NCBI GenBank assembly: GCA_963921825.1
Contig: OY997591.1
Span: forward strand, 53,669,031-53,733,030
Origin: Erodium maritimum
Taxonomy: Eukaryota; Streptophyta; Magnoliopsida; Geraniales; Geraniaceae
DNA length: 64,000 bases
Direction of reading: 5' to 3'
Both the position numbers and the translations under genes were made by a program. The stretch's first letter is position 1, and each line of letters begins with the position of its first letter. Under the pieces are notes generated by a model. The model saw only the letters and a list, made by a program, of their open reading frames with translations. It was not told where the DNA came from and ran no database searches. Positions 706 through 56,526 of this stretch are shown here, piece by piece.

Positions 706-2164
706 TATATTGGAAAATTAACTGAGAATGAATGACCAAGGAAATTGAAACGGCAGCATAATGTTAATGGAGAGAAGATGAAAAGAGTGAGTGGAGAAGA
801 TGGCTGAAGGAGCAGTATTGAGGAATAGTGGGACAGGAACAGTGCCACGCTGGCATAAGAGCAAGGACGACGAGGTTATGTCCGACGTTGAGGAGATGAC
901 GTACGAGGAGCTGGCTCCCCGGATGCCGACGTATGAGGAGATGGCAGCCCAACTGCCGACATATGAGGAGATGGCAGCCCAAATGCAGCCAGTTGAGCGA
1001 CGATTCCGGCGGATGATGGAGAGGCAGATGCAGGCAGTAATGCCAAGGGTCCAGAGGGCCATCCGTGGGGAACCAATGCGCCGAGAGATCAACAGAGTTT
1101 GTTCGGCAGCCCACATCCAATTGATGGCGAACTATTTTGACGACCAACCCCTATACGGCCCTGACATGTTCAGACGTCGGTTCCGTATGTGCAGACCACT
1201 TTTCCAACGGATTATGAACGCGGTGAAGGCTCACGACCCTTTCTTCATTGGATGGAGGCCCGACGCTACCTCACGGCCGGGGTTATCAACGGAACAGAAG
1301 TGCACCGCCGCTATACGGATGCTTGCGTATGGGTCCGCGGCCGATTCACTGGACGAAACTCTGCGAATGGGGGTAAGCACCATACTTGAATGTTTACGTA
1401 AGTTTTGCAAGGCCGTCATTGAGGTCTTCGGAGCCTAGTATGAGCGTACACCCACACCGACTGACATGGACCGCTTACTCCGAGAAGGGTACAACCGAGG
1501 GTTTCCCGGAATGGCGGGGAGTCTTGACTGTATGCATTGGAAGTAGAAGAACTGCTCAACCGAAGAGCAGGGAGCCCATGGACGGGGAGGTCACAACGGG
1601 GAAAAGACGATTATGCTTGAAGCTGTAGCGTCCCGTGATTTATGGATTTGGCATGCATTTTTCGGGATGGCTGGATCGAACAGCGACATCAACGTCCTCA
1701 ACCACAACCACTTATTCCAAGACGCTTACTACGGCCAAGAACTTGCTGTTGAGTACTACATCAACGGCCATCGGTACGACCGACCTTATTACTTGGTGGA
1801 CGGCATTTACCCAGCATGGGCACGGTTCGTGAAGACTATTCGGCATCCCTACGAGCTCAAAGAGAAGTTGTTTGCTAGATGCCAAGAAGGTGCTCGGAAA
1901 GATATTGAAAGGGCTTTTGGAGTACTTCAAGCAAGGTGGCACATCATTTCCCGTCCCACTCGTAGTTGGAGCAAACACACTTTGGCTGATATCATGCACA
2001 CTTGCATAATTCTACACAACATGATTGTAGAGGATGAGCGCGACCGGTACGAGTATGGGGAGGAGGAGTTGTTGTGGGCGCAACCTCCAGAAATGCCGAA
2101 TTGGACACCACCGGAACGATGGCACCACTACTGCAGAAATCGGCTTAGGAGACGGATAAAATGG

Positions 2165-2490
2165 ATCTGTGACCTAAGTTTTGGCACTTAGGTGACGGAT
2201 ACAGCAATCCGTCAGCCAAGTGGTGAAACTAAGGTCACGGATCTTGCATCCTTCACCCAAGTGGACCACCTGGCCGACGCATAGCTGGATCCGTCGCCCA
2301 AGTGAGATAAGGTAACTACTATCCGTCACCCAAGTGAGAAAACTTTAGCCACGCATGCTGCATCCGTCGCCCAAGTGAGAAAAGTTTAGCCATGCATGCT
2401 GGATCCGTCTCCCAAGTGAGAAAACTTTAGCCACGCATGCTCTATCCGTCACCCAAGTGGGCTCTATCCGTCACCCAAGTGGGTTGACTA
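2165..2490. repeat. CACTA left subterminal repeats (ATCCGTC.CCCAAGT)
   Basis: Many copies of the core ATCCGTC(A/G)CCCAAGTG, partly as a tandem unit of about 51 bp containing TTTAGCCA(C/T)GCATGCT between 2330 and 2460. Arrays of short motifs close to the ends are typical of CACTA elements and in En/Spm bind the element's own regulator protein; that role is inferred here. Confidence 0.75.
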
Positions 2491-2856
2491 TTTTACAAAA
2501 AAATTGACCACAATATTCAAGATGAATTAACCGTTCGATGATAGTTTTTTTTACATACGTATACTAGTTTGGATAGTACATACGAGATGAGCGGTTTTGA
2601 TTATATAATATGCGAGAGACCGACACGTATTGATTGAAATCGCCAATTCCACTATGTGCATGAACATATTTAGCCTTACGGTAGTATAACGTATGACGTT
2701 GTCTCGTTCATTTTTTGTATGTGATATGTATGAGTACTATACGATCTTATGTTGTATATGAGGCATGCTAAGTACTTATATCGTTCAATTATCAATACTA
2801 CGATAGTCGGGAAAAATGACGGGTTTTGGGGATTTGGTCAATGTAAGTCAACTTCT

Positions 2857-2890
2857 GCTGGCCGATGGATGCATATATCCATCGGCCAGC
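2857..2890. repeat. Perfect 14-bp hairpin in the CACTA interior
   Basis: GCTGGCCGATGGAT and its exact complement are separated by GCATAT. A partial repeat of the loop and arm (ATGGATGCATATATCCATC-like) follows at about 2900-2920, then an AT dinucleotide run at about 2927-2942. Confidence 0.7.
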
Positions 2891-3167
2891 TTTTTTATCG
2901 ACGGATGCATATATCCATCATTCAATATATATATATATATAATTATTTCCACTATTTTAATTTTATCTTTGAACTTGGGCATCAAATTGAAACCCGACAT
3001 TGAGCGACCGGTGTCCATAATTCACAAGTTTATAATCATTAGATTGATATTGTTGTAAAAAAAGTTATATAATGTATTTGATCACAAAAAAAAAACAATA
3101 TTTTGTACTTCGAATCGAGAAAACGATCAAGAAAATTTGTGTTATCCTTGTCTTAGTATTATATAAA

Positions 3168-3551
3168 GGGTAAATTACCTACCCCTAACTTTTTTTAACT
3201 GATATCTATCCCGATGTGTAGTTATATGACAAATAGCCCATTTTTCTGTTAACTTTTTTCTAAAATGACGAAAATACCCTCAACCACACTTCAATAATTG
3301 TTTTTAAAAAATTATTTAAAAATTCATTTTTGTTATATATATATATACTTACTTAATCACTTCAGTTTTATTTATAAAAAAATATTTAAAAAATCACTAA
3401 GGGCGTTTTCATCATTTTAGAAAAAAGTTAACAGAGAAAAAGGGTCTATTTGTCATATAACTAAACATCTGGGTAGGTATCAGTTAAAAAAAGTTGTGGA
3501 TAGGTATCAGATAAATGTGATAAGTTAAGGGTACATATTTGTAATTTATCC
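3168..3551. mobile_element. Mutator-type MITE with long inverted repeats
   Basis: The 9-bp TSD TTATATAAA lies at 3159-3167 and 3552-3560. The ends are GGGTAAATTACC and its near complement GTAATTTATCC, and the inverted repeat extends inward for well over 100 bp (both arms contain the complement of GACAAATAG and GTTAACTTTTTTCTAAAAT). There is no coding capacity. The 9-bp TSD is typical of Mutator-like elements. Confidence 0.82.
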
Positions 3552-3738
3552 TTATATAAATATAAACAATGTAGCGCACATGAAAAAATTAACTTGCTAT
3601 AAATAATTAGTTGACAATAGGTACTAAGTACGTTGATAACAAAAACTATTTAATTTAATTATATAAAGCTATTGAATTTAATTATATAAAGCTATATATA
3701 ATAAGTTAAAAAGTGTATATATATTTTCTAATCACAAA

Positions 3739-3930
3739 AACTCCCTAGTTGAGTTGGTAAAAGGCACATCCTTTGGTGCCATGAGGTCAGGGGTTCGAAC
3801 CCCATGGTGTGCGCGCGGGCTGGCGGAGCGGTGTGGCGGGTCGGGCGGGTCTGGACGCGCGTGTGGCGGGTTTGGTTGGTGATGTGGTGGTGACGTGGCG
3901 GACGCTGGTTAGACTGATATTTTTTTTATT
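3739..3930 (+). mobile_element. tRNA-derived SINE candidate
   Basis: It has an exact match to the pol III A box consensus (TAGTTGAGTTGG, 3746-3757) and a B box (GGTTCGAACC, 3792-3801) at tRNA-like spacing. A GC-rich body and a T-run near 3921-3928 follow, as in many plant SINEs. No clean TSD could be read. It could also be a decayed tRNA pseudogene. Confidence 0.5.
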
Positions 3931-3944
3931 AATCTATTATTACA

Positions 3945-4160
3945 CTTGGGTGACGGATACACTTGGCTGACGGATTGGATCCGTGGCTAGAGTGACAACC
4001 TTGGGTGACGGATTGTATCCGTCACCTAAGTTTTTACCCTACCGACAGATGTACGCATCCGTCGGACAAATACTTGGCCGACAGGTGCATCCGTCACCTA
4101 AGAACTTGGGTGACGGATACGTCCTCTTAGGTGACGGATCCAATCCGTCTCCCAAGTACT
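3945..4160. repeat. CACTA right subterminal repeats (inverted set)
   Basis: The same core in the opposite orientation, ACTTGGGTGACGGAT, often paired with its complement a few bases on to give small palindromes (for example around 4006-4030 and 4107-4155). Confidence 0.75.
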
Positions 4161-4675
4161 TATTTGCAGTAGTGCACCACGGAGGGCCATTACAATACCA
4201 GCAACGAGTGGATGCTCAACAAAATGTCATAAATCCTGAGATCCACCATCAACTACAACAAGATCTTATGGAGCACTTATGAGATCGCTTTGGAGCTGGT
4301 TTCCATGACGACGAGTAGTCGTTTGTGCTCTTGGAGCTGCTTTGTTTTGGGCTGTATTAAAAGGGGTTGAATAAAATTAGAAGTTCATTTATATTCGTGT
4401 TGAATTTATTAATTATTGATTGTCATTAATTATTGCTTTCCAAAATTGTTTAAATTATGACTAAATTAAACGGTTTCTGATAACGGATTAAATAAAACAG
4501 GAAAATATCAAATAGTAATCCAGTCAGCACTGTTCTGCACTCTCAGGACCTCAAGGTCCTTTCTGTTGCAAAACTCCCACTTTTCTGCACTCCCACTCCC
4601 TGACTTTTGTCCAGTCAGCACAAGGTCTGCACTCCCACTCTCTGACCAAGGTTCTTTCTGTTGTTCATGCTCTAA

Positions 4676-5402
4676 CTCCTCCTATTATCTTAGTAAGATT
4701 GATCATCACCTTTTTTTCCTGTGACGTTTTAATGGTTAGTTTGGTCATCATTTTGTTGTTTATGTAACCGCTAAAAGAAGTCCATTATTTCATGAAACCC
4801 GTGAGAGGTTAAACTAAAAAAGTTTTAAAAAAATCTACTAAAAAAAAGCTTAAACTGATCAACATACCCTACGTTGAAATCCTACATTTTAGTTAGACGA
4901 TAAATACAATCTAAATGCTTAATTTAAATCTGAATTAGATTTTCATCTTCTTGATTTTTAAATACAAGAGGGCTTTCAAATTTTGTTATATGTTCCGAGT
5001 TAAGAGGATGATATCCAATCCGCTCATTGGGTAAAATTCGTAAAAAAATATCAATCCATATGTGGGTGACGTGTCTCAATTTTGTCAATCCTCATATTTA
5101 CTAGCGGGTCGAAAATGATGTGTTTGGATCAAATCGAATATCCTCCTATACACACCCCTTTCTAATACTATTTAAACTTGATCTCATATTCGGTTTTCGT
5201 TCTGATCTCGCCTCAAATGATCAACATATTTTAGTATGGCACGTACCAAAGTTGCAAAAGTATTGTTTTATTTTTTTCCGTTAAAGTTTTGTTTATGTGG
5301 GATCAAGTTAGAACATTTTATATTTAATTCGATTTTCAACCAGGTATTAATAATATTCTCAACAAAAAATACTAAGAAATTAAGAATTTGGGAATTTAAA
5401 TA
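4676..5402. other. AT-rich spacer, nothing recognised
   Basis: No ORF, inverted end or domain could be recognised. It lies between Harbinger E1 and the ORF1-only LINE. Confidence 0.4.
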
Positions 5403-5414
5403 ATATGAAACATA

Positions 5415-7142
5415 TAAGATCAAACCATATTTCAACTCACTATAATATTTCTATATGCACACGATGAAGGCGAAGTCGAAGCTCCAGTCATGGTTTTAAC
5501 GCCAACCAGACTCTCTCCTTTGCTTTTTTCTGTGCAGTCCTGTTGTCGAGTTACGACCAGTATTGTTCCATCGTTGCTCGAGGCGTTGCTCCGGCTCGCG
5601 TTAAGAGCAAGGGTAAGAACAGGGCTCCTCCAACCAGCACAACCGAGACAAAGGGAGGGCTGGCTGGTGTTGATGGGGTTTCTGTCAACCCTGCCCAGGT
5701 TCTAGTCCGTAGTCCAGAGGAGAAAGCTTCATCTCCTGCTCGGGTCTCGACGACGAAGAGGACTAATTGTCGGAGCAGATCAAGGAGGAAGGCTACACTT
5801 CAAATTGACGAAGCCTTCGTTTGCAATCTTCCGCCCGGGTCATCAGAGGAGTGGGTCAGAAATGTCTTTAGCTCCTTTGGTACGATCGTCTCTGTGTCCG
5901 TTCCGAAGCGGCAAAATCGTAATGGCCATGTTTTCGGATTCATTCGTTTAGAATCAAAAAATGAGGTGGATCAGACCATAGAGGGGTTGGATGGTTTCAA
6001 GATCAATGGGAATACTCTTCGTGTCACCGTTGCTCGACGTCGGAGGCGGAAATTAAGCCCTCGCCGAGATGATGGACCGTAGGGAGCATGCTCTGTTTCA
6101 GAAACCTTGAAACAGAGCTTGAACTTGAGGTCTCAAACTTTGAATCAGAGCCAATTTTTGAGGTCTCCACAACAATTCTCTATAGGGGGAAAGAGCTTGG
6201 AATTAGCGGAGAGGATCGAAGTGTTCCTGTAGATTTTTCCTCGCCGAACGGCGATGGCGAAGATCTGTTTCACTCTTTCGAGATCTTCGAGAAGGTTTCG
6301 AATCCCGGGATTAACGCGATCGAATTGATTCGAGCGGATCAGGATGATTCTCAAATCCCCGATGTTGTGTCCTTGGATCACGCAGCAGATTGCGAAACTG
6401 TTTTCAGGGATTTGATTGCATCAATTCACGCCGATTTTTCTGGCGATCAATCCTCGCGTGGAGAAGACACAGACGCGACCGGGCTGAGTTCCTCTGCTGG
6501 GCTAGTTGAGGTGCCTAGGCCCGACGTTGGGCATGTTGTGAGCCCAGATCCAACTTTGACAGCTAATGGCTTGAGCCCATCTGACGCGAGTGGGAAGCCT
6601 ATTGCAGGCCTATCTTCAAGCCCAAAAGTTGGTCAAATCGCTGGGCCTAGTCTTGATTGAACGGATCAGTGTGTTCAACCTTTGTCGGTTGTGTCACCAA
6701 CTCCCTTCCTTTCTCTACATTAAAGTTTCGATCAGGAATTTCTTGTGTTGTCACCTGAAGCAGTAAAGAAAGGGAAAGGAAAAAGAGGGAAGAAACCTCA
6801 ACAGACCTTTACAGTGACAACCCGTTCACTTCGTATAAGTGACAAGGAGATGCTCGAGGCTCAGCGTAGAAATGAGGTTTGGAGACATTTTGTCGCTACA
6901 GGGACTATGCTGCAGATAGAACTTAAGGATGATCGTCCTTCTATAGTTTAGTAATTCTTTGTATTAGGCCGATGTCCTTTTTCCTCTTTGTTTTTTCGTT
7001 TTTTTAGGAAGATTCTCTTATCACTTTGTGGTAGAGTCTCTTTTGAAGGTCAATAGGGATCGCATTTTAGTGGTCCTCTCTCTTTTCCCCATCTTGGGAT
7101 AAAAAGATTTAATAAAATCATCATCTATCAAAAAAAATATAT
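5415..7142 (+). mobile_element. ORF1-only LINE retroposon, copy I (RRM type)
   Basis: A 1.73-kb insertion with a short A-run at its 3' end (about 7130-7137) after TTAATAAAATCATC-type 3' UTR sequence. The TSD ATATGAAACATA is at 5403-5414 and 7143-7154. It holds one LINE ORF1-like gene and no endonuclease or reverse transcriptase; ORF1 is followed by about 180 bp of 3' UTR and then the tail. Plant L1 LINEs with an RRM in ORF1 are known (the BNR group of Beta vulgaris). The absence of ORF2 makes this non-autonomous. Confidence 0.72.
5543..6951 (+). pseudogene. LINE ORF1-like RNA-binding protein (RRM), broken
   Basis: A basic N-terminus leads to an RRM at about 5800-6040 with RNP2-like AFVCNLP and RNP1-like HVFGFIRLES, then an Arg-rich tail (RRRRRKLSPRR). 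An acidic, low-complexity middle follows (about 6090-6660), then a basic C-terminal segment (about 6745-6951) with KKGKGKRGKK. The frame shifts once after the RRM (near 6080), and stops at 6658 and near 6721 interrupt the second half. In L1 elements ORF1 coats the element RNA; here that role is inferred. It closely resembles copy III on the minus strand at 47321-49026. Confidence 0.75.
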
Positions 7143-7154
7143 ATATGAAACATA

Positions 7155-7686
7155 AATCAAGAAAACTTAAATAATAAAAACATAAAACAATAGAAATTTA
7201 GAATTTTGAGAAGGGGTTACAAAGGAAAAATTAACAAAATTGAGGGAACACAATTAGTAAATTTTAAAAATTTAAAAGGTATAATAGAAAAAATAAGTAG
7301 TGAAACAAAAGAGAATTTAGGGGGACAAGGGATTTCTGTATCTTCTCCACTGATCATAAAGTAATGTCGTGAAATAAACACTTGACATAGCCGTAAAAAA
7401 GAAGAGTGAAACAAAATATTTTCTTGTAAATTAATATCAAACTAAGGTATTTTTAAATTAGTGTACATAAAAGCCAAAGTATATTGAACATTTCCCCAGC
7501 CTATAAAAGAATGCAATAATTTCAGTCAAAAGATGAACGTACCCGACCCATATTTGACCTAAATATTTCAATCCCAATCAAATGTATATTAGCTAACAGT
7601 TTATTGATTCTTACATACACTGCACTGTATTTTGCAGCAAATGAGGTAGCTACTGATTCTCTTGCACCCAACCCAATCAAAGTCAA
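7155..7686. other. AT-rich upstream region of the small host gene
   Basis: No element was recognised. It probably holds the promoter and upstream sequence of the gene at 7752-8096. Confidence 0.4.
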
Positions 7687-7692
7687 TATATA
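7687..7692 (+). promoter_or_regulatory. Candidate TATA box for the small host gene
   Basis: TATATA lies about 60 bp upstream of the chosen ATG, which would give a short 5' UTR. It is one of several AT-rich stretches, so the call is weak. Confidence 0.35.
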
Positions 7693-7751
7693 CCCTCAAT
7701 ACAAGGGGTAGCATTGGAATCAGAAGTTATAAATTCAAGTATCTTCCAAGA

Positions 7752-8096
7752 ATGTACATTGAGAAGATGAAAGAAAGAGATGAAAAAGAGGAGTGTGGAA
7801 CAATATGGGACTGTGGAAGCCCATTGTACGATTGCCATGAATTGGTGTCATTTGGTCATCTTCTTGACAGGCATGCCATGGCTTTCCCATCTTCTTCGGG
7901 GTCGAATAGTCGTGCAGAGTCATGGAGAAAAGACATGACCAAACCTGAGTCTTCCACTTCCATGGCAGGCAGCTTGAGTCCATTAATGGGGTGGAGTTGG
8001 AAGAGGAGACAGAGGAAAGACAAGCTCAACAAGTTCTTCAAGACCAGACTTGTTGGGTTCTATAATAAGGTTGGTTTTTGGAGGAGATTCAAGTAG
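7752..8096 (+). CDS. Small plant protein with a WDCGSPLYD motif, function unknown
   Basis: This intact single-exon frame encodes 114 aa from the ATG at 7752, or 109 aa from the ATG at 7767. The in-frame extension further upstream has no ATG, so one of these is the likely start. The N-terminus is charged (KERDEKEE), followed by CGTIWDCGSPLYDCHELVSF and a HLLDRHAMAFP stretch. A Ser-rich middle and a strongly basic C-terminus follow (WKRRQRKDKLNKFFKTRL), ending FWRRFK. I recall small uncharacterised plant proteins with a similar WDCGSPLYD motif, but cannot name the family or assign a role. No signal peptide or membrane span is visible. It is the only host gene in the window that looks whole. The basic tail could suit nuclear targeting, which is only a guess. 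Confidence 0.7.
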   Translation: MYIEKMKERDEKEECGTIWDCGSPLYDCHELVSFGHLLDRHAMAFPSSSGSNSRAESWRKDMTKPESSTSMAGSLSPLMGWSWKRRQRKDKLNKFFKTRLVGFYNKVGFWRRFK

Positions 8097-8235
8097 GAAT
8101 CAACTTATCTAACATAAGGTTGGGTTTCTAACATGTACATTCTTCTTCAAGATATCATATCCATCGTATACATGTTCATCTTATGTCCCAAAATTATTTC
8201 GAGTGTTAGAAATGTTTTTCAACAAATTCATAAGA

Positions 8236-8241
8236 AATAAA
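8236..8241 (+). terminator. Candidate polyadenylation signal of the host gene
   Basis: AATAAA lies 140 bp past the stop codon, within TAAGAAATAAAATTGG, just before retroposon copy A. Confidence 0.35.
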
Positions 8242-8324
8242 ATTGGACTCCAAATTTTGGGGAGATTTCACTCTTTATATCCAACGTATATAATAATACT
8301 GTCAGTATCAAATCTCTTTTTTTT

Positions 8325-9444
8325 TAAACGAGTAACCGGAGAATACTATTAATACCCAAAGGTAATCAAACAAGGAAGGGCGTAAACGCCCAGGGTTCCA
8401 GATATGTGTCCGGACCGACCGTAGCAAGTCCAGTGCTCATGGACCCATAAAAATAGTCTACTTGTAATCGTTGGCAAACACTCAAGACAACTCCTTACCA
8501 TCGTCTCAAAACAGTGAGACATAAAATAAAAGTATCTAACCAAAATATACAGTAAATTGTTCCAACAATAATGCAGATAATCATAAAGCAAATAAAATAG
8601 ATGAGCTGTTGGTGCAGGCTGCCCGGGACCTCCCAGCACTGGCTGTCCCGGGTCTGTGGATATAGGCCACCAGCGGCCAGACCCACCCCTGTCGGGTCGG
8701 TTCATTCCTGCATAGGAGGCTGCCCCGCCTCCGCCTGCATCATTTGTTCCTTCTCGATCCTGTCCGGCTCCTTAGGCGGGACCCCCAGCTCATCATCATC
8801 GTCCTCCCAGTTTGGCAACATGGAGATGCATTCAAATGGCGTCCCACCCTGTCGGGCGTCAGATCTGATGGCAGTCATTGTACGTCCCACCGAGGTTGAC
8901 GCATACCGGCTCGGGGGATGGTACTTTGGGTAGGGTACCGACAGTAGGGTACGGTGAAGAGGCACCAGGTCGGGGTAAGCACCACAGACGTCAGCATAAG
9001 ACCGGCACGACGGCACCGACGACAGGGGCTCGTAAAGAGCGCTGACGCTTGCCTTGATGGAACCCGGCTTGTCCTTTGGCGGCGAGGACGTGCTGCCGGC
9101 GAGGCCCTGGTGTGCTGCCGACAGATGGTCGGTCCGAACGACGAACGACAGGGAGCAGCCGAACTAGAGAGGGTTACGACAGGGGAGAGACGAACACCGG
9201 CTTCCAGAGAGGTGCAGCAAAGGTGCGGCTGTGACACGGTTGCGCATAAACGGCGACGGGAGAGGGGGCCCGACGAGTGTGGTTGCGACCGACGAGAGGA
9301 ACCTGGGAAAGGATGGGAGAGTGGCTGCGACCGGCGAGCGGCGACGACGGCAGCTAAGCTTGGCTATGGAGGCGACGGAGAAGAAACTCTAATAAGGGTG
9401 CACCCGAGAGGGTTTCTAAGAGCGTTTGAAAAAAAAAATCACAT
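8325..9444 (-). mobile_element. Non-autonomous poly(A) retroposon, copy A
   Basis: The TSD AAATCTC plus a T-run is at about 8310-8324 and 9445-9459. The element reads on the minus strand: a GC-rich, gene-like 5' part (about 9430-8870), a middle, and a 3' part ending TTCTCCGGTTACTCGTTT and A residues at about 8325, which overlap the TSD. No endonuclease or reverse transcriptase is present. Its 3' half matches copies B (19198-32173) and C (45604-46245) by eye, including the blocks ACAGACCCGGGAC, TAGACTATTTTTATGGGTCC and TACGGTCGGTCC. The tail and TSD imply LINE machinery copied it. Confidence 0.7.
8349..8705 (-). CDS. Conserved ORF of the A/B/C retroposon family, unknown function
   Basis: A 118-codon open frame on the minus strand. 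It contains STDPGQPVLGGPGQPA, a hydrophobic middle of about 40 residues, then RLFLWVHEHWTCYGRSGHIS and a short C-terminus. The same frame is open in copy B (19265-19618; PTDPGLPVLGSLGKAASKAL) and largely in copy C (45855-46130; PTDPRLPVLGGLGKTALRAL), with colinear spacing. I recognise no known domain. The conserved frame may be a real protein or may only reflect recent copying with few indels. The first ATG is at 8705, but an earlier start upstream is possible. Confidence 0.4.
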   Translation of the reverse strand: MNRPDRGGSGRWWPISTDPGQPVLGGPGQPAPTAHLFYLLYDYLHYCWNNLLYILVRYFYFMSHCFETMVRSCLECLPTITSRLFLWVHEHWTCYGRSGHISGTLGVYALPCLITFGY

Positions 9445-9459
9445 AAATCTCTTTTTTTT

Positions 9460-10069
9460 GAAGTGGAACGTAACCATATGTTAAGAGAGAAATAAAACCC
9501 AACCCAAAGCGAGAAAACCAAATAGCAAAAAGAAAAATAATGAGAAATAAGTCCTAACAGCACTGGACGAGAAAAACATAATTTAGAAGCTCAAATGACG
9601 AAATGCTTCATTAAGATGTCTAGAATTCGATGCTGAGATATCGTTCAAAGAAACCGATACAACAAATCCAAACGGAAGCTAGGATAGAGCAGGACCCTTT
9701 TCGGAGTGGTGCCGAAGCGGACTTTATACTCTTCCAAGAATCTAGCGTGCGTGGTCCTCCTTGATATGATAATGTAGGGCTTCAAGAACGCGAGAGTGCT
9801 AGCTCCGGACATAGAAGAAGAGCATCGTGCCAAAACTTGGTAGATCACTGCCACCTAACGTCCAATGGGACAGTTTTGCTAGTCGACCCCTACTGGACCA
9901 CGAGCTCCTCATTGATCGAGGAAAGAGTGCTTGGTACCCCTCACTGATATTCATGTTGCCTCATCAGGCTCTGTAATGCCCTATGACCTCGTGATTACGC
10001 TAGTACTAAGCCCATCTCCCTCTGTCACGATCATGACAAAAAACGACCACACTCAACGTGATATCTCCC
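9460..10069. other. Unrecognised stretch between retroposon A and the copia fragment
   Basis: A minus-strand frame at 9645-9854 is open but unfamiliar. No ends or domains were recognised. It may be further decayed retroelement sequence belonging to the copia fragment on its right. Confidence 0.3.
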
Positions 10070-11681
10070 CATCATCGCGCGCAACCCCAACCACTAGAGA
10101 AAAAAATTATAAATCATTTACAATAAAGCTCACAGGGCCTAATTCCCACCTGCTCTTGTTGATGCTACAACACAGGTATCATCTTCTAATCTGGGTTATC
10201 TGTCCTGGTATCACAAAGATCAAGTTTTGTTTTCTTGAATGTTATCTTTAATCTCTGAGGAATGTTACCTTCATTTGGATCGAATAACCACATCAACTGA
10301 AATATGGTCTAATAGAATTACAAAAGAGAAAAGCAAAATCATTGGCTTTAACTGTCATTTATTAGATGCGGAATTTAATAATGTTGTATTTCGGAGATTA
10401 CGAACTGAACATAATGCAACGGTCGGGGCTCTCCAACAATGTCCCATTCCATTCCTAGGACGAATATGGCATGAGTTCAACAATCTCTTGTTGGTGATTC
10501 TTCATTTCCTTGTTATGAATATCATTTTTCTAGACAAGAAACATATTATCGTCCACGCTATCAAGGTTCTACTAGTAGTCGTAGGAACATGCGTTGTCTT
10601 ATAGTTACAGCCAAGGTTGTAAATGGCGGGCGCCTGGGCGGCCTAGGTGGCGCCTAGGCGCCAAAAACATGTTTTCCGCCACGATTTTCGTGGGTCGGGC
10701 GGTTGAAGGCGCGGAGCCTATTGGGCGGGCCGGACGGGCGCCTAGGCGATCAGGGCGGGCGCCTGGAACCCGGCGGGCGACTGGGCCGGGCCGTATCGTG
10801 CGACATATATTTAAAAAAAGCAAACGAATCGCACAGAGGTCGCGACAGTCACGTTCTCCAGGTGGCGAGAGTCTACGTTCTCCCATCTCTCCGGCGATAG
10901 GAACTGTGGTAAACCTAGCTCGACGTCCGTGCGTTGGAGTTAGACGGCCGAGAGGCGTTTCTCCGGCTGTCTGTTACTCGTGGTAAGAAAAGAATGGAGG
11001 ATTCTGATACACTAAAGAAATTGCAAAAAAAAATACTATAATAGAGGAATGACCGGTTCGTATTTAATTATGATCCTTGAAAATTAGTATACAATAAGTT
11101 CCGTAATTAAATGCTAATTGAATGATGTTTCAGAAAAAATCCAATTAATAATAAATGTGATTAGATGTCTAATTAATAATAAGAAATTAATTAATGTAAT
11201 TAGAATTAGTAGTTAATGTAATTAAATTCTGTGAGGAGAAATCTATTGAGAACCACTCTTAACATAGAAACCGCGAGAACCAATCCTATCCACACTCATC
11301 TATGATCCAACACTCATCAAAATGCCACATCATCACCCCAATCCAAGCCAAATTCACGCCACTTTCAACCATTCTCACACAAGCAAGGGTATAATTGTAA
11401 GAGCAAGAACAAGGGAACGGCCCCGCTCCCCGCGCCGCTCCGTTCGCTGGCCGGGCGCGCTGGCCGTTCCGCTGTAATCGTCGAAAAGCACGGCCCCGCT
11501 CCCCCTCCACGCGCTCCCGCTCTCGCTGCACACGCCACCGCTCCCCACTCGCTGGCCGGGCGCGTTGGACGCGCCAGCGCGCCGTCTGCTGCGCTGGCAG
11601 CGTGTGGGGCTGCCACGTGTCCCGACCGTTGCACACTAACGGCTATATTTTTTTTAATTCAAAAATCAACAAATAAAACCC

Positions 11682-11689
11682 TATAAATA
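11682..11689 (+). promoter_or_regulatory. TATA box of the E2 gene
   Basis: TATAAATA lies 105 bp upstream of the ATG at 11794, within CCCTATAAATACCCC. The equivalent place in E3 (near 17523) reads CCCTGTAAATACCCC, so the two elements share this promoter region. Confidence 0.65.
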
Positions 11690-11793
11690 CCCCTCTCCTC
11701 TCATATTTTTCACACCACTTCCTACTTCAACTATCCAACTTCACTATCTCCTTCCCAAATTCTCCTCTCTCGTTTCAATTATTCTCGCGAAAA

Positions 11794-13362
11794 ATGTCGG
11801 GCGACGCTGGGTCTCGTGCACACTCATTTGGTGACGAACGAGAATTCACCGAGGACGAACTGGCACGAGGTTTCGGAGACATTCTAACGGGCCCTCGCTC
11901 CAACTCCCCAAGCTCGAACCCGGGGTCGAGTTCAGGTTAGTGCAAACTTATTTTATTGTATTAATGCATTGTATTCATTTTTTTGATTAATTATTTGCAC
12001 TTATTTTATTATTTTATTTTTGAGCACTTAATTTAATGTATAAATTTTTTTTGTATTAAATTTTTGAGCACTTAATTTAATGTATAAATATTTTTGTTAG
12101 GGCAAAACCGTCCCCCACAATACCAAATGGCGCCAGGGTTCCAAGTGCCATCACAATGGAGCATGCCCCCACAAGGTTTCCAGATGCCACCGTTCCCACC
12201 AGAATCACAATCACAATGGGGCATGGGACCCCAATTCTACAACTACAAGGGTCATCCACTACCCGACGTAGAAACCCCCCAACCATCCTCTTCCCAACGA
12301 CGAGGCCGAGCCCCTGCCCGAGCCCGAGCCCAAGCCCCTGCCTAAGCCCAACCCCGAGCCCAACCCGAAGAACCAGAGGCGGATGGCCGGACATTCAGCA
12401 AGGAGGAGGACCACCACCTCATAACTTGCTGGTTGAGCACAACAAGAGACGCCGTCAAGGGCAACTCGCAAACCGGCAACACATTCTGGTGCGCAGTGCA
12501 GAGGAAATACAACTCCCAGAACCGTTACCCACCTCGCCGCTGGGAAGCCATCAAGAAACGTTGGCTCAGAGGTTCCGGCCAGACAAGGAGGATGCTCGGC
12601 TATTTGAAGAGGTCCAGGGCCGAGAAGCCGAGCGGCGCAAACGACGAAGAGCACTTGAGACGTGCGAAGGAAATGTGGGAGAATGATGGGAAAGTGGTTA
12701 AAGACCACCCGCTAAAGTTCGACCTGGATCATTGGGTCTGGAGGCTCGATGGCAATGAGAAGTTCAGTGCCGAGGAGGGCACAATGGGAACTGTCCTCCG
12801 TCAAGTACGCCAACAACGACAGCGGTTGGATGAGGCTGGGGCTTACAGCTCAACCCCACCCACAAGCACAGGGGAGGAGGGAACACATATCAGTGGTGAG
12901 TCCCAACAACCAGAATGGGGAGGAAGCGAGAACTACGAGGGGACTCAAGTCCCTCTCACCGACACACCCTCATTCCCTGAGGCCGACCCAAGTCCCCCTC
13001 CCCGACCGCAAGGGAAGAAGGCAGCGAAGTCCGCAAAGAAGGGGACCGTCCTCACGGCCCAAATGTCTGCCTTCGTCGAGCTGGAACGTTCACGGGTGGA
13101 TGCTGAATGTTCACGTCGCGAACAACATGTAGAAAGGCATCGCCTCATACAGTCATTAACCCAACAGTGGGAATCAAACCTCGCCACCTACAAGGAGGTT
13201 CTGGGGGCGGATACATCTTCCTACGACGAAGAGGCTATGGCAGACCATAAGTTTTTCAAGTCCGAACTACGACAACTCATATCCACCCTTAAAGCCCAAA
13301 TCGAAGAACTTCGACGACAACCCCCACCATCGGATGTCGGCCCAACAGACGATGATTCTTGA
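11794..13362 (+). pseudogene. Harbinger ORF1, Myb/trihelix-like DNA-binding protein, one stop
   Basis: Exon 1 runs 11794-11935 (MSGDAGSRAHSFGDE...) to a GT donor at 11936. An AG acceptor at 12099-12100 opens exon 2 in the matching phase, so splicing keeps the frame. Exon 2 has a Pro/Gln/Met-rich part, then TFSKEEDHHLITCWLST, GNTFWCAVQRKYNSQN and RRWEAIKKRW, the pattern of the Myb/SANT-like protein of plant PIF/Harbinger elements. The C-terminal part is charged, with a possible coiled coil near 13060-13330. A TAA at 12343-12345 interrupts an Ala/Pro/Arg-rich linker ahead of the Myb domain; otherwise the frame is open to 13362. In this family ORF1 acts with the transposase in binding element ends. 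Confidence 0.8.
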
Positions 13363-13736
13363 ACTTGTATTTGGTTTTGGGTTGTATTAAAAGGGGTTGA
13401 ATAAAATTAGAAGTTCATTTATATTCATGTTGAATTTATTTATTAATTATTGATTGTCCTTAATTATTTATTTCCAATTTTTTTTAAATTATAAACAATT
13501 TAAACGGTTTCTGATAACGAATTAAATAAAACAGGAAAATAACAAATAATAATCCAGTCAGCACTGTTCTGCACTCCCAGGACCTCAAGGTCCTTTCTGT
13601 TGCAAAACACCCACTTTTCTGCACTCCCACTCCCTGACTTTTGTCCAGTCAGCACAAGGTCTGCACTCCCACTCCCTGACCAAGGTCCTTTCTGTTGTAC
13701 ATGCTCTAATAGCATGGTGTCATGTGGACAATTGTC

Positions 13737-14742
13737 CATTTTTTTTCACCAATTCACTAATTTAATATTTCCCGATTCGTTTGAACTCCGATTAACTTCA
13801 AACTTGCGCCAAATTTTTTTTTTCAAGGGCTTTAAATCAAGATCAGTCATGAATATATTTTGAAGCACGAAAATAAAAATTTATATCAAGGTGATAAAAA
13901 TAATGTTGAGCGTTGATAAATCTTCACTAATAAATGTTTTATATCGGAGTACCAAACTAGTGCTAAATGTTGATAAAAAAACATGTAATGAGGTGATAAG
14001 AAACAAATAATGAGGTGATAAAAACCATTTTCAATTTTGATAATAAGTGTGATACACTAGAGTTTAACGTTGATAAAAAAAACTTGTGATGAGGTGATAA
14101 AAAACCCGTAATTCAATGATAAATCTAGTGTTTAGTGTTGATAAAACTGGTGTTCATAAAAAGCACGTGATGAGATGATAAAAATCATGATCAGTTTTGG
14201 AGAATGGGGTGATAAAACCAGTGTAAAGTGTTGATAAAAATAGGGTAAAGTGTTGATAAACCCAGAGCAAAGTGTTGATAACAATTACCCATATATAATT
14301 CCTTTAAAAACTAGCCCCGAAATAAATAAAAAATTCGTGCTTCAAAAAACATGTGATGGGGGTGATAAAACACACGTAATTTGAATGATAAACCTAGTGT
14401 TTAGTGTTGATAAAACTAGTGTTCATAAAAAACACGCGATGAGGTGATAAAATTATGATCAGTTTTGGAAAATGAGGTGATAAAACCAGTGTAAAGTGTT
14501 GATAAAACCAGTGTAAAAGTGTTGATAAATCCAGAGCAAAGTGTTGATAAAAATTACCCACATTTTTTATAAAAAAAATCAACCCAGAAATAAATAAAAA
14601 AGATTTGTGCTTCAAAATATATTCATGACTGATCTTGATTGAAAGCCCTTAAAAAACAAAACTAATGGCGCAAGTTTGAAGCCAATCGGAGTTCAAACGA
14701 AGCGGGAAAAATTAAATTAGTGAATTGGTTAAAAAAAAATAT
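13737..14742. repeat. Foldback element with GTTGATAAAA tandem core
   Basis: Arms of about 130 bp at 13737-13869 and 14605-14742 are inverted copies of each other; both contain ATGAATATATTTTGAAGCAC or its complement and the complement pair CACCAATTCACTAATTTAAT. Between them (about 13905-14560) lies a degenerate tandem array based on GTGTTGATAAAACCAGTGTA and GAGGTGATAAAA. There is no coding capacity. The exact ends and TSD could not be fixed. Confidence 0.65.
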
Positions 14743-15115
14743 GATAGTTTTACTAAAAAGCCCTTACCACTTACTAAAAATTGCTGTTTTTTTTTGCAGT
14801 CAACAAATCAACTACTCAATTGCATCTCATCCATCCATTCCTAAAATGGATGACTTAGATTGGTTCTCACGGTTCCTACGTTAAAACATGGTTCTCACCA
14901 GATTTCTCCTTTAAATTCTGTAGTTAAAGTAATTTAATGTAACCGTGATTAACTGTCAATTATAAGATTTTTCAAAGTAATTGTCTAATTAGCAATAATG
15001 AATTAGAAAGAGAATTAGATGCGTTTAAAAAAAAACAGAGAATTAGATGTCTAAATATTATTATCGTAAAAATCAAAACATATATATTTATTTATATAGT
15101 ATATCGTATGTATTA

Positions 15116-16399
15116 TACAATATTCAATACAAAATATGGAGCGCATGTCTTCTCTCTGCCCTAGTGCTGCGGCGCCGCACAGAGTGGAAGGATGGACCAT
15201 GGCCATGATCAAGGCCATGGTTCTAGACATGATGATGCTTCAGAGTTTCGAAGCAACCACCATCCATGGAGAAGCTATTCCTTGGAATAGCTTGGGTAGC
15301 AGACGCAACCCTATTAGGGCTTTGCTATCAGCGGCGGCTCCCGAGGGGGTCTTTTCGCAGGTGGGGGACGGTGGCTCCCGAGGGGGTTTTCGCCGTCGGA
15401 GTCTACCATGGGGATCGTGTATCCGAAACTGTATTTGCTGGATTCCGGCATGCCAGGAGGGGAAGATAGGCTGGCGGGGATCGGCGAGGAGAGCTCGAGA
15501 CGGGGAAGTTCAGAGGTCAGGAACGGTGGCGGCGTCTTGGCAGAGGAGGTCGGTTGCGCTGGATCTGTCATCGCCGGGGGAGGAGAAGGAGCCGTCCCTT
15601 GTGTTCTCCTCGGTCCGGCGATCGGTGGGTGATGGTCGGGGTGGAAGCAAGCGGGCCAGGCAAGGTTCTGGACGAGATCGTGCGCCGGCGCGGGCGGCGG
15701 CTTTGGGGCTGGTGGTGGAATTCTCGTCGGCGGCGACGGTAGTTAGGCGAAGAAGTCAGGGCAAGGGGGTACTGCACGGGAATCCTAACCCTAATGGGCC
15801 GACTCTGGGCCGTGGGGATGGGATGGGCTGCACGAATGGGCTCATGCAAGATGCGAGTGGATCACACGCAGCAGCGGCGGGGGGATACAAGCACCCTCGT
15901 CTACAGGAATGAGTCTGAGGTGGCCCGGGGAGGGGTGGGTCGACTTTGACCCCTTCCGGCGGATAGATGGCGAAGGTTCCATCTTCAGTCGATAACTGTC
16001 TCGCCTACCAGTCCGGAGTCAGCAATCCCGCGTTCAGGAGTTCTACCATTATCACTCAAGGGAGGACGACGCACGCTGACATACCGGGGGAGATGTAGGT
16101 CCACTAGTGTTCCCCTAAACGTGGCTGGCTTCGTCTCGTCCCAATTGGAAGAAGAATGTTGTATCGGTGTCACCAGACGCTACCGCAGATACACCCTTCG
16201 TCCGCAACCTTTCACTAGAGCCGATTTTATTGCTTTCGTTTCATTTCAGTTTACTAGTTGGTTTGGTTTATGTAGGTGGAGTATGATTACATGCCCACCA
16301 AAGTTGGTTTTTGCCTATGTAGGTGGTGTACGGTTTCAGTACCCACCAAACTATCATATTATGATCTAATACAATTGCATGGTTATTCTCAAAAAAAAA
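15116..16399 (+). mobile_element. Poly(A) retroposon, copy D
   Basis: The 15-bp TSD ATATCGTATGTATTA is at 15101-15115 and 16400-16414, with a 10-A tail at 16391-16400. The 1.28-kb insert is GC-rich at its 5' half and AT-richer at its 3' end (GGTTATTCTC then A-run). It carries no reverse transcriptase. It is not obviously the same sequence family as copies A, B and C, but has the same architecture. It sits inside the hAT element. Confidence 0.8.
15136..15912 (+). CDS. 258-aa ORF at the 5' end of retroposon D, unknown function
   Basis: An uninterrupted frame starts 20 bp inside the element and runs 258 codons: Met-rich at first (MAMIKAMVLDMMMLQSF), then Gly/Arg/Ser-rich with RRR clusters and no recognised domain. 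Its GC-rich composition makes chance open frames likely, so the frame may not be translated. A basic, low-complexity protein starting right at the 5' end would fit an ORF1-like RNA-binding protein, but no RRM or zinc knuckle is visible. Confidence 0.3.
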   Translation: MERMSSLCPSAAAPHRVEGWTMAMIKAMVLDMMMLQSFEATTIHGEAIPWNSLGSRRNPIRALLSAAAPEGVFSQVGDGGSRGGFRRRSLPWGSCIRNCICWIPACQEGKIGWRGSARRARDGEVQRSGTVAASWQRRSVALDLSSPGEEKEPSLVFSSVRRSVGDGRGGSKRARQGSGRDRAPARAAALGLVVEFSSAATVVRRRSQGKGVLHGNPNPNGPTLGRGDGMGCTNGLMQDASGSHAAAAGGYKHPRLQE

Positions 16400-16849
16400 A
16401 TATCGTATGTATTAATGTAATGAAAAGGATTCCTCTCAAAAAATAAATATAATAAAAAATAGGTATATTATATATATTAAAAACTAAATTCTAATATAAT
16501 AGATGTTTATTAATTTATTATGATGTTTGGTTTAGTATAATATTTTGTTTTTCAAACTTGTTATCTTTTATATATTAAAAAATAATTTATTTTTAATAAT
16601 TTATTATATGTGTCTAATATATTGTTTATTAATAATTTAAAATAATAAAATAATATAAATCCGCCTAGGCCCCGTCTAAGCCCCGACTAGTCTCCGCCTA
16701 GCGCCTAGGGGTCCTCGCCGTCCGACTAGCGCCTAGCGCCATTTACAACCATGGTTACAGCCTAGCCTATCAGTTTTGTGGACTTAATAATCACATGGCG
16801 ACTACTTGCAATCATCAGTTTGAAATGAGAGTGAGATTTTGGCCAAACT

Positions 16850-17240
16850 TCAAAGGGATAAGTAGAGTGAATCTTCATTTCACGTCTGCTTTGGCCCTTG
16901 AATAGACCTTTGGGAACTTTAACTGTGTTATCCAAATTAGAGACTACCTCTAAAACATGCTCCATACATTTGGGGACAAGATGGGGAAGGCTCATTGGGC
17001 TCAACACTTGTTTGGTCTCCCAAACCAATAATGAGGTCGGTAAAAAAAGATTTTGTTTTAAAATCAAACCCGTCCCAGATCTTGCAAATACCTTGGTCGA
17101 GTTTGACGGAATTTTGCACATAAACAACTTGGTGTTGCCTTTGACCTCCTCTGATGAGCGTCCTTCAACCAGGAATAGGAATCGATCATCCCACCCTGCT
17201 ATCTCTTGGAGGACCCGAATCCTTTAACTCCTGAGGACCA
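16850..17240. other. Unrecognised, possibly more of the copia fragment
   Basis: Moderate-GC sequence with short open frames on both strands and no recognised motif. It lies between the copia knuckle-like remnant and Harbinger E3. Confidence 0.3.
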
Positions 17241-17243
17241 TAA

Positions 17244-18304
17244 GAGCTCGCACAACGGGCCGGCTCTTGCCCCCGACCTGCGCGCGCGGTCCGCAGCCTT
17301 CGGGCCGTCCCACTGTGGGTCGGATTTCACGGTCCGCGACCCTGAAACACGCGGCCCGGGCTTCGCCCCTCGCCACTCGCTCCTCGATCGCGGGGCGGGC
17401 TCGCGCCCCTCGGCCCTGTCTGGCTCCCCTCCTCTCGCGTGCCGACACGTGGCAAGTCCGACCGTTTGACAACGGTCGACAACGACTATTTTTTTTTAAT
17501 TAAATCTAAAACATTTTAAACCCTGTAAATACCCCAACCCCAACCTCATTTTTTTCACACCCATTCTACAATTTCACTCTCTCATTCCCACATTCTACTC
17601 TTTATAATTTCCAAAATGTCCGACGATGAGTTTATGTCCGACGTTGAGGTTCCGACATACGAGGAGCTGGCTGCCCGAATGCCGACGTATGAGGAGATGG
17701 CAGCCCAACTGCCGACATATGAGGATATGGCAGCCCGAATGCGGCCAATTGAGCGAGGACTCCAGTAGAGGATTGAGAGGAGCATGCAGAGAGCAATGCC
17801 AAGGATCGAGAGGGCCGTCCGTGGGGAACCAATGCGACGAGAGATTAACAGAGGTCGTGCTGAAGCCCACAACCAATTGATGAGGAATTATTTTGTCGAT
17901 CAACCCATATATGGCCTTGATATGTTTAGGCGTCGGTTCCGTATGTGCAGACCATTTTTTCAACGGATTATGGACGCGGTCAAGGAGCACGACAGGTACT
18001 TCGTTCAGAAACCCGACGCGGCCTCATGGCCGAGCTTATCAACGGAACAGAAGTGCACCATCGCGATAGGGGCTTATAAATAATTTAAACGGTTTCTGAT
18101 AGATAATTAAATAAAACAGCAAAATATCAATTAATAACAACTCAGCATCCAGTCAGTATAGGGCCTCAGCCCCAAGGCCTCACCCAGGGGCTCTTCATTG
18201 CAAAACACCCACTATTCTGAGGCCGTAGGATCTCACTTTTGTCCAGTCAGCATAAAGACCTCAGGGCCAGGGCCTCATCCAGGACTTTTCCATTGTATAT
18301 GCTC
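17244..18304 (+). mobile_element. PIF/Harbinger element E3, internally deleted
   Basis: The TSD TAA is at 17241-17243 and 18305-18307. The ends are GAGCTCGCACAACGG and, inward from the right, GAGCATATACAATGG. It keeps the GC-rich leader and promoter shared with E2, then the N-terminal third of the transposase gene found in E1, then jumps at about 18068 straight into the shared 3' region (TTTAAACGGTTTCTGATA). This is a classic deletion derivative on the path towards a MITE. Confidence 0.82.
17616..18083 (+). pseudogene. Harbinger transposase N-terminal fragment
   Basis: It starts with MSDDEFMSDVEV at the ATG at 17616, in the same place relative to the promoter as the Myb ORF in E2. It has the three PTYEE repeats seen in E1, then MRRRINRGR-like sequence and FRRRFRMCRPFFQRIMDAV. 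A TAG at 17766-17768 interrupts it. The frame ends at 18083 just past the internal deletion, so the whole DDE catalytic core is absent. It shows what the lost 5' start of the E1 gene probably looked like. Confidence 0.8.
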
Positions 18305-18307
18305 TAA

Positions 18308-55632: not shown

Positions 55633-56526
55633 TGTATTAGGGGTGTTCAAAAACATTCGTTAATCCATTCCGCTCGCTTATCCGCCCGGTCTGTTGACCA
55701 TCTGTTCTTCATCCATATATGAGTGAGTGGATAGTGGATCAAATTTAATGATTCGTAATAATATGGGTGGTTTCGGATCAGGGTAGATAGATCAATGGAT
55801 GATTCACCCGCCCACATATGGTATTAAGAGCATCCACAATGCATGGGCTGGGAGCTGGCTATAAGCACAAAAATAGGAGAGAGAAATTATTTAAATATTG
55901 CTGGTGGTAAGAGGAGGTGGTAAGCTCATAGCGGCGCTAACCGCTGGGGGGGAGAATTTTTTGAATAAAAATACCACGAACAGGCTAGCATTGCAGGGGT
56001 GCTGATTGTAAGACTGGCTGTAAGGCTGAAAATATTAATTTAATATTTTAACAGTCAGTCTTACCACAATTTGTTGACTGTTAGCATTGTGGATTCTCTA
56101 AGGTCAATGTAATATATAGAGTTCAACCAATCATACCACTATAAAGGTGATCACCAGTCGACCCAACTACATGTGTGAAATCAATATTTTTGTAATAAAA
56201 TCATGTGTAGTATTTTTGTAATATAACTTGGTGTCTGAAAATTGTTTGAATAAAAAAATGGTATTAATTAATTCCAAAAATAATTTTCATCTTAAATTTT
56301 GATTAACGTTTATGGGTGATGAAGATTGTATCAAATCCACCCACATATTTTGCGGATGAAATCCGCCAAACGTGCATTTATTATGGGTGGGTCGTGGATC
56401 ATAAAAATCCAAATCTGCATCCGCATGGGCAGATGAAAACCCCCTCCCGCGGGCGGATATCCGTCCATGGAAAAATTCTACATGTTGGAATTGCACGTTT
56501 GAGATTTTTTTATTTTTAATTTTAGG
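55633..56526. mobile_element. Possible hAT-like MITE carrying a Harbinger MITE
   Basis: The left end AGGGGTGTTCAAAAA is of the kind seen in plant hAT MITEs, and the sequence is rich in CCGCCC/GGATAGTGGAT-type words repeated near 56340-56465. The matching right end is unclear. Low confidence for boundaries and class. Confidence 0.3.
55828..56098. mobile_element. Tourist/Harbinger-type MITE
   Basis: The TSD TAA is at 55825-55827 and 56099-56101. The ends are GAGCATCCACAATGC and, inward from the right, GAGAATCCACAATGC. 271 bp, no coding capacity. Confidence 0.8.

Follow-up and report, generated by a model that had tools for sequence, protein, structure and literature searches.

Transposase and ORF1 probably reside on separate elements in a Pong-like PIF/Harbinger family of Erodium maritimum

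In a window of 64,000 nucleotides from Erodium maritimum (the whole stretch analysed; OY997591.1, 53,669,031-53,733,030, forward strand, element coordinates being window positions), two mobile elements, E1 (859-4672) and E3 (17244-18304), carry transposase (TPase) sequence without ORF1, and a third, E2 (11401-13706), carries a putatively SANT/Myb-like ORF1 without TPase. Sequence comparison thereby bore out the gene contents given by the first-pass annotation, which had proposed a two-component family with one gene per element. Together with a census of the 763 Mb host genome, these data make it likely that the three elements belong to a two-component (split) Pong-like PIF/Harbinger family, in which the DDE TPase and the putatively SANT/Myb-like ORF1 are found on separate element types. 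Both types have a common shell, composed of one kind of terminal inverted repeat (TIR), a TTA/TAA target, a homologous leader that stops at the start codon and, from the stop codon onwards, a 3' end nearly common to the two.

This shell can be recognized in the window itself. E1, E2 and E3 alike start with GAGC, end with GCTC and are flanked by TAA repeats, so that the common TIR starts and TAA target-site duplications (TSDs) described earlier are real. The 3' end of about 340 bp, said to be nearly identical between E1 and E2, was recovered as an alignment of 336 bp with 92.56% identity (E 2e-142). For the GC-rich leader, TATA region and place of the start codon that E2 and E3 were said to have in common, alignment from the TIR to the ATG scored far above dinucleotide shuffles, with a global score of 193 versus -58.5 ± 19.4 (largest -3, 300 shuffles), 78 versus 2.9 ± 11.5 (largest 34) for the GC-rich part alone and 115 versus -0.4 ± 11.0 (largest 43) from TATA to ATG. 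All three window copies are damaged, and copies with open frames were found elsewhere in the genome.

Gene content and junctions across the genome

A search with the E2 leader listed 41 matches, including the window itself and one leader of a TPase element, with 40 of 1439 candidates scored. Twenty loci from this search resolved into 21 ORF1 elements; in every locus ORF1 sequence lies between the leader and the common 3' end, and TPase was found inside none of the elements. Locus L015 consists of two ORF1 elements, and L026 of an ORF1 element with a separate TPase element adjoining. The element length was 2.24-2.35 kb in 18 of the 21, the shortened ones being L019, L022 and L027, and an exon-2 frame of at least 420 amino acids (aa) was kept in 8 of 21, among which L018 starts frame-shifted. 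A 24-base tag from ORF1 exon 1 occurred 215 times at up to two mismatches (reversed control 0; 100 places listed). Ten more loci taken from this list, two of them shortened (L042 and L049), all had ORF1 and lacked TPase, with more diverged leaders (about 83-95%; 71% in part for L043), and the ORF1 element of L050 likewise has no TPase inside. Origin as retro-copied spliced transcripts was rejected, as the ORF1 intron is present in 19/20 loci of the first set and 9/10 of the second; L019 and L049 are without it and in L022 it is partial.

With the TPase protein as query, 93 of 11131 candidate places were scored, window included, and 55 of the 93 on this best-score list were stop-free. In each of ten TPase loci, all chosen as stop-free, a span of about 2.1 kb takes in the leader, the ATG, a TPase frame (457-470 aa) and the common 3' end, without ORF1; the 5' TIR pattern matched in nine of the ten, as did the 3' TIR pattern. 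Three further loci, picked by tag regardless of stops, were TPase-only with the same layout (3/3), the 3' TIR pattern finding no match in one of them (L060). The L029 element and the first element of L050 are also TPase-only, with a TPase that is internally deleted in the former and frame-shifted in the latter. A 24-base TPase tag occurred 273 times (control 0; 100 places listed). Sorting the copies by gene content, as the first-pass annotation had proposed, thus gave 33/33 ORF1 elements without TPase (E2 included) and 17/17 TPase elements without ORF1 (E1 and E3 included), and both genes between one pair of ends in 0 of 50 elements, as judged by sequence similarity with the TPase of E1 and the ORF1 of E2 as references.

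The junctions between gene and shell are class-wide. The start junction of ORF1 lies at one place in 33/33 elements, bridged by one alignment, and the stop junction in 32/33, the exception being L049, which is deleted there. For TPase, the start junction lies at one place in 16/17 elements (exception E1, without leader) and the stop junction also in 16/17 (exception E3, deleted there). Inspection by eye of part of the junctions showed that the leaders stay homologous for a few codons past the ATG and that 3'-end homology starts at or just past the stop codon. Such class-wide junctions at start and stop codons indicate that the single-gene copies are not independent deletions, and fit a single ancestral event in each class.

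A closely related two-gene parent was looked for by comparing the positions of 110 ORF1 and 164 TPase loci from the tag and search lists, with a limit of 10 kb. Three pairs were seen versus 0.58 expected by chance, namely E1-E2 in the window and two pairs of separate elements abutting at a 3-bp TSD; no two-gene parent was met in this partial sample. Mostly two-gene copies with unique breakpoints, the outcome named beforehand as contrary to a split, were looked for and the opposite was seen. Independent deletion derivatives were accordingly rejected as the main explanation, given the class-wide junctions and the lack of a parent among the loci sampled, and the proposal of one gene per element is supported by the census, the junctions and the same lack of a parent. 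Of the simpler alternative raised in the first-pass annotation, deletion from a common two-gene parent, the independent deletions fall, and a two-gene ancestor is probable (see L055 below).

The superfamily assignment rests on the usual features. The E1 transposase matches PF04827 (E=4.3e-72, on 1547-2191) and PF13359 (E=5.4e-10), the DDE transposase domains of PIF/Harbinger elements, and the TPase of Ping and Pong is of the PF04827 type. The TPase retrieved 4905 proteins at E<=0.001, and among the 120 listed all those with a named organism are from plants; parts of the TPase had no match in collections of plasmids, viruses and prokaryote genomes. The GAGC..GCTC terminal inverted repeats are short and imperfect, as in PIF/Harbinger elements. 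TSDs of 3 bp (TTA 16, TAA 9, TGA 3) were read at 28/28 sites listed, of which 12 were preselected for a visible TSD, 13 came from 20 loci taken by TIR pattern alone and three are E1-E3, and 9 of the 21 elements of the first ORF1 set had no TSD at their estimated ends. Judged by these sequence features, E1 and E3 are Pong-like PIF/Harbinger elements with TPase sequence only.

History of the two classes and possible cooperation in trans

Leaders and 3' ends differ in how they separate the two classes. Leader identity is 96% within the ORF1 class, 91% within the TPase class and 73% between them, and 3'-end identity is 94%, 94% and 92%, respectively; E3 has 64-67% leader identity to both classes and 61% at its 3' end. 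Since leaders are class-specific and 3' ends nearly common, we infer either that the classes traded 3' parts later than their leaders diverged, or that those of one class spread into the other. In a midpoint-rooted tree of 33 leaders, read with support values left aside (L019, without the start motif, and E1, without a leader, were left out; the 3' tree had 35 sequences), the leaders of two TPase elements, E3 and L037, fall outside a group made up of the ORF1 leaders and the remaining TPase ones, a hint that the TPase-only type predates the ORF1-only type. The split itself is probably derived from a two-gene ancestor, because a distant two-gene relative, L055, exists in this genome. Either such an ancestor would have lost one gene in each lineage, or the shell would have received the other gene, in both cases once per class, and later exchange of 3' ends between the classes would keep both types readable by one complex.

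How could such elements move? Ping and Pong of rice require both ORF1 and TPase, and separate constructs, also in Ping-Pong mixtures, move mPing, according to passages of the published work (PMC2836001). By analogy, the ORF1 protein of the Erodium family would bind the common ends and recruit the TPase, and since these ends are common, one ORF1-TPase complex should move both element types. Each type would supply one protein in trans, so that both would spread together and neither would move alone; we favour, by inference from Ping/Pong, cooperation in trans between ORF1 and TPase elements. A more far-reaching reading, to which we give somewhat less than an even chance, is that the family is a naturally multipartite DNA transposon, made of two obligately cooperating non-autonomous types that are jointly autonomous and kept compatible by 3'-end exchange, and that other Pong-like families of the genome live in the same way.

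The rice elements resemble the Erodium family in their ORF1 and DDE TPase proteins and TAA target (PMC2836001, in the passages available), but each of them encodes both proteins, whereas in Erodium one gene per element is set in a common shell. ALP1 and ALP2 of Arabidopsis are two interacting Harbinger-related proteins from separate genes as well; unlike the elements here, these are host genes that have been domesticated and are not mobile (PMC7282668). No paper describing a family in nature with the two Harbinger genes on different elements was found among the titles and abstract openings listed by our search of the open literature, with subscription papers and Repbase outside its scope. In PIF/Harbinger elements the work of transposition is shared by two proteins, and their genes are usually carried together. 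If the split reading is correct, linkage of the two genes is not required, as both types reached hundreds of copies, and the family, which parallels multipartite viruses, would allow a study in nature of how transposons cooperate, cheat and co-adapt. It would also be a warning for annotation, as either half alone would be classed as a defective copy.

Evidence against a split and rival explanations

Several observations weigh against a split family. The sample was partial, with positions for 110 ORF1 copies out of at least 215 and for 164 TPase copies out of at least 273, and the other gene was sought solely by comparison with the TPase of E1 and the ORF1 of E2. In L025, a weak TPase-like match (33% over 94 aa, E 8e-5) lies 5 kb beyond the ORF1 element. 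Furthermore, the genome does hold a two-gene Pong-like element, L055 (L055:976-4631, about 3.65 kb), with TPase (one in-frame TAG) followed by ORF1. Among recent copies, pairwise dN/dS (ratio of nonsynonymous to synonymous substitution) of ORF1 was 0.98 for eight copies without L018 and 0.90 for seven copies without L018 and L024, all with frames of at least 390 aa, showing little sign of purifying selection on ORF1, and that of TPase was 0.72 for ten stop-free copies. Finally, the E2 ORF1 matches Pfam Myb_DNA-bind_5 weakly (E=0.0074; 16.6 versus a cut-off of 21.7 bits), had no relative at E<=0.001 in a large protein collection and gave a poor structure model (mean predicted local distance difference test score 50), too poor to be used for a structure search. 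In BLASTP it aligned with the ORF1 half of two Arachis ORF1-Plant_tran transposase fusion proteins (E=9e-9 and 1e-10), and in tblastn with the ORF1 of L055 (E=2e-14, 25% identity); we take it, from these alignments, to be a diverged Pong-type ORF1.

L055 came from searches with the Arachis ORF1 (150 loci scored of 4049 candidates) and the Arachis TPase (113 of 10259), in which two ORF1/TPase pairs within 10 kb were seen versus 0.44 expected; the second pair, known by coordinates, lies 9.5 kb apart on opposite strands. As L055 was found by the same kind of search, the method can see two-gene elements, and at least one exists here. It resembles the E1/E2 family in its ends (GAGC...GCTC, with TTA at either side), its TPase (52% aa identity) and its ORF1 (25% identity), and differs in carrying both genes on one element, TPase first, and in its distant sequence. 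The 3' end of L055 (CCATTGTGGATGCTC) resembles the ends of sequences in the window that look like miniature inverted-repeat transposable elements (MITEs), and 55825-56101 is likely a Tourist-like MITE of about 270 bp, TAA-GAGCATCCACAATG ... CATTGTGGATTCTC-TAA, with ends resembling those of L055.

With only part of the copies sampled, a rare, low-copy two-gene master could supply both proteins, the single-gene copies being abundant non-autonomous deletion offspring, like mPing and Ping. Internal deletions indeed occur in the family (E3, L019, L022, L027, L029, L042 and L049), and orchid PePIF1 provides a precedent, since intact autonomous two-gene elements are present there beside copies lacking TPase or ORF1 (PMC6327408, in the passages available). 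Those orchid single-gene copies are called defective, whereas full-length single genes are the usual state in Erodium, as the narrow length range of the ORF1 elements shows; the class-wide junctions at start and stop codons, the class-specific leaders and the lack of any two-gene copy of the E1/E2 family in the sample also argue against a master, which we consider unlikely. Medicago MtPH elements show part of the same picture, in that both MtPH-E lack orf1 and two MtPH-M have lost it (PMC2213677, in the passages available). The other MtPH elements are two-gene or non-coding, unlike here, and the available passages of that source describe no ORF1-only partners.

Alternatively, the ORF1-only elements may be passive cargo, with the TPase elements using the ORF1 of another family and the E2-type ORF1 being dispensable. 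The dN/dS of ORF1 and the plentiful ORF1-type genes of other families (the 150 scored above) speak for this; trans-mobilized copies and passengers alike would be expected to show such dN/dS values. On the other side, E2-type elements are similar in copy number to TPase elements (215 versus 273 tags), their 3' end is nearly common with that of TPase elements, and ORF1 frames are open in several copies (the 8/21 including L018), which leaves passive cargo improbable in our view.

There is very little to recommend a compound working unit, in which a TPase element and an ORF1 element that meet at a TSD would be mobilized together: L050 and L026/L029 do hold such elements exactly 3 bp apart, but just these two pairs occur among 110 x 164 loci, their TPase is damaged in both, and L015 pairs two ORF1 elements in the same manner, which would follow if element flanks simply make good targets.

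These abutting elements are arranged head to tail in L050 (L050:228-4901, TPase and ORF1 elements), head to head in L026/L029 (TPase and ORF1 elements) and tail to tail in L015 (L015:3410-8026, two ORF1 elements), with a spacer of exactly 3 bp in each case, TAA or TTA. From their sequence, they look like insertions at the TSD of another copy. The target letters of PIF are CWCTTAGWG. The insertion preference of PIF/Harbinger elements reaches past the TSD (PMC2836001, in the passages available), so that sequence beside one copy may favour insertion of another; at the 28 insertion sites listed, the preference outside the TSD was weak. An element end with its TSD can read GCTCTTAGAGC. At L024:8097-8301, the 5' flank of the ORF1 element reads ...CATGCTCTTA, resembling an element end and TSD, and 200 bp of this flank gave no match to the family 3' end.

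Gene separation may reach beyond the E1/E2 family. A second ORF1-type family of about 2.4 kb is without TPase in 4/4 loci read (L051:1811-4240, L052:1409-3803, L053:1372-3816 and L054:1530-3914), with GAGCACCTCCAACGG ends and TAA/TTA on both sides, and L051 and L052 have an additional frame that is SANT-like by eye. Three loci of another TPase family (L056-L058) showed no ORF1 in the parts read; behind the TPase, 2/3 have a GCTC end and then TTA or TAA. On contig C1, 0/37 other ORF1-type loci lie within 10 kb of 43 E1-type TPase loci. At C1:77694615-77697669, known by coordinates only, an other-family Pong-like TPase lies tail to tail with an E1-family TPase at a spacing that fits abutting elements.

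Organization of E1, E2 and E3 in the window

All three elements lie on the forward strand. E1 is flanked by TAA at 856-858 and 4673-4675. Its TPase remnant runs from 866 to 2125 and continues at 4178-4318, where other copies end alike, with in-frame stops at 1436-1438 (TAG), 1544-1546 (TAG) and 4280-4282 (TGA), and is followed by the 3' end (4341-4672; 92.6% identity to that of E2). The leader is absent, the TIR start leading directly into about codon 4 of the TPase; chance 5' truncation was rejected for E1, as a TAA-GAGCAAG start stands where the E3 homology stops and TAA is present at the 3' end. The TPase gene is interrupted by a CACTA-type insertion of 2,049 bp (2126-4174; TSD CAC at 2123-2125 and 4175-4177), which contains a ATCCGTCACCCAAGTG-like motif in many copies as well as a nested inverted repeat (arms 3176-3247 and 3435-3506).

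E3 is a diverged, internally deleted TPase-only element (TAA at 17241-17243 and 18305-18307). Its leader (17244-17615) is homologous to that of E2 from the TIR to the ATG, and is followed by an N-terminal TPase remnant of about 150 codons with a single in-frame TAG (17616-18071) and a 3' end (18072-18304) that, where it aligns, is about 70% identical to its E1 and E2 counterparts. The TPase DNA of E1 and E3 is 83.4% identical over 453 bp.

E2 is flanked by TAA at 11398-11400 and 13707-13709. Its 5' leader (11401-11793) comprises the TIR, a GC-rich stretch, a TATA region and the 5' untranslated region, and would serve as promoter. ORF1 is predicted to consist of exon 1 (11794-11935), a GT..AG intron (11936-12100) and the putatively SANT/Myb-like exon 2 (12101-13362), with a single premature TAA at 12343-12345, and the 3' end in common with TPase elements spans 13371-13706. 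Directly after E2 lies a fold-back type sequence (13739-14738) with arms of 85 and 58 nt that are 88-93% complementary, and with internal direct repeats containing GTTGATAA.

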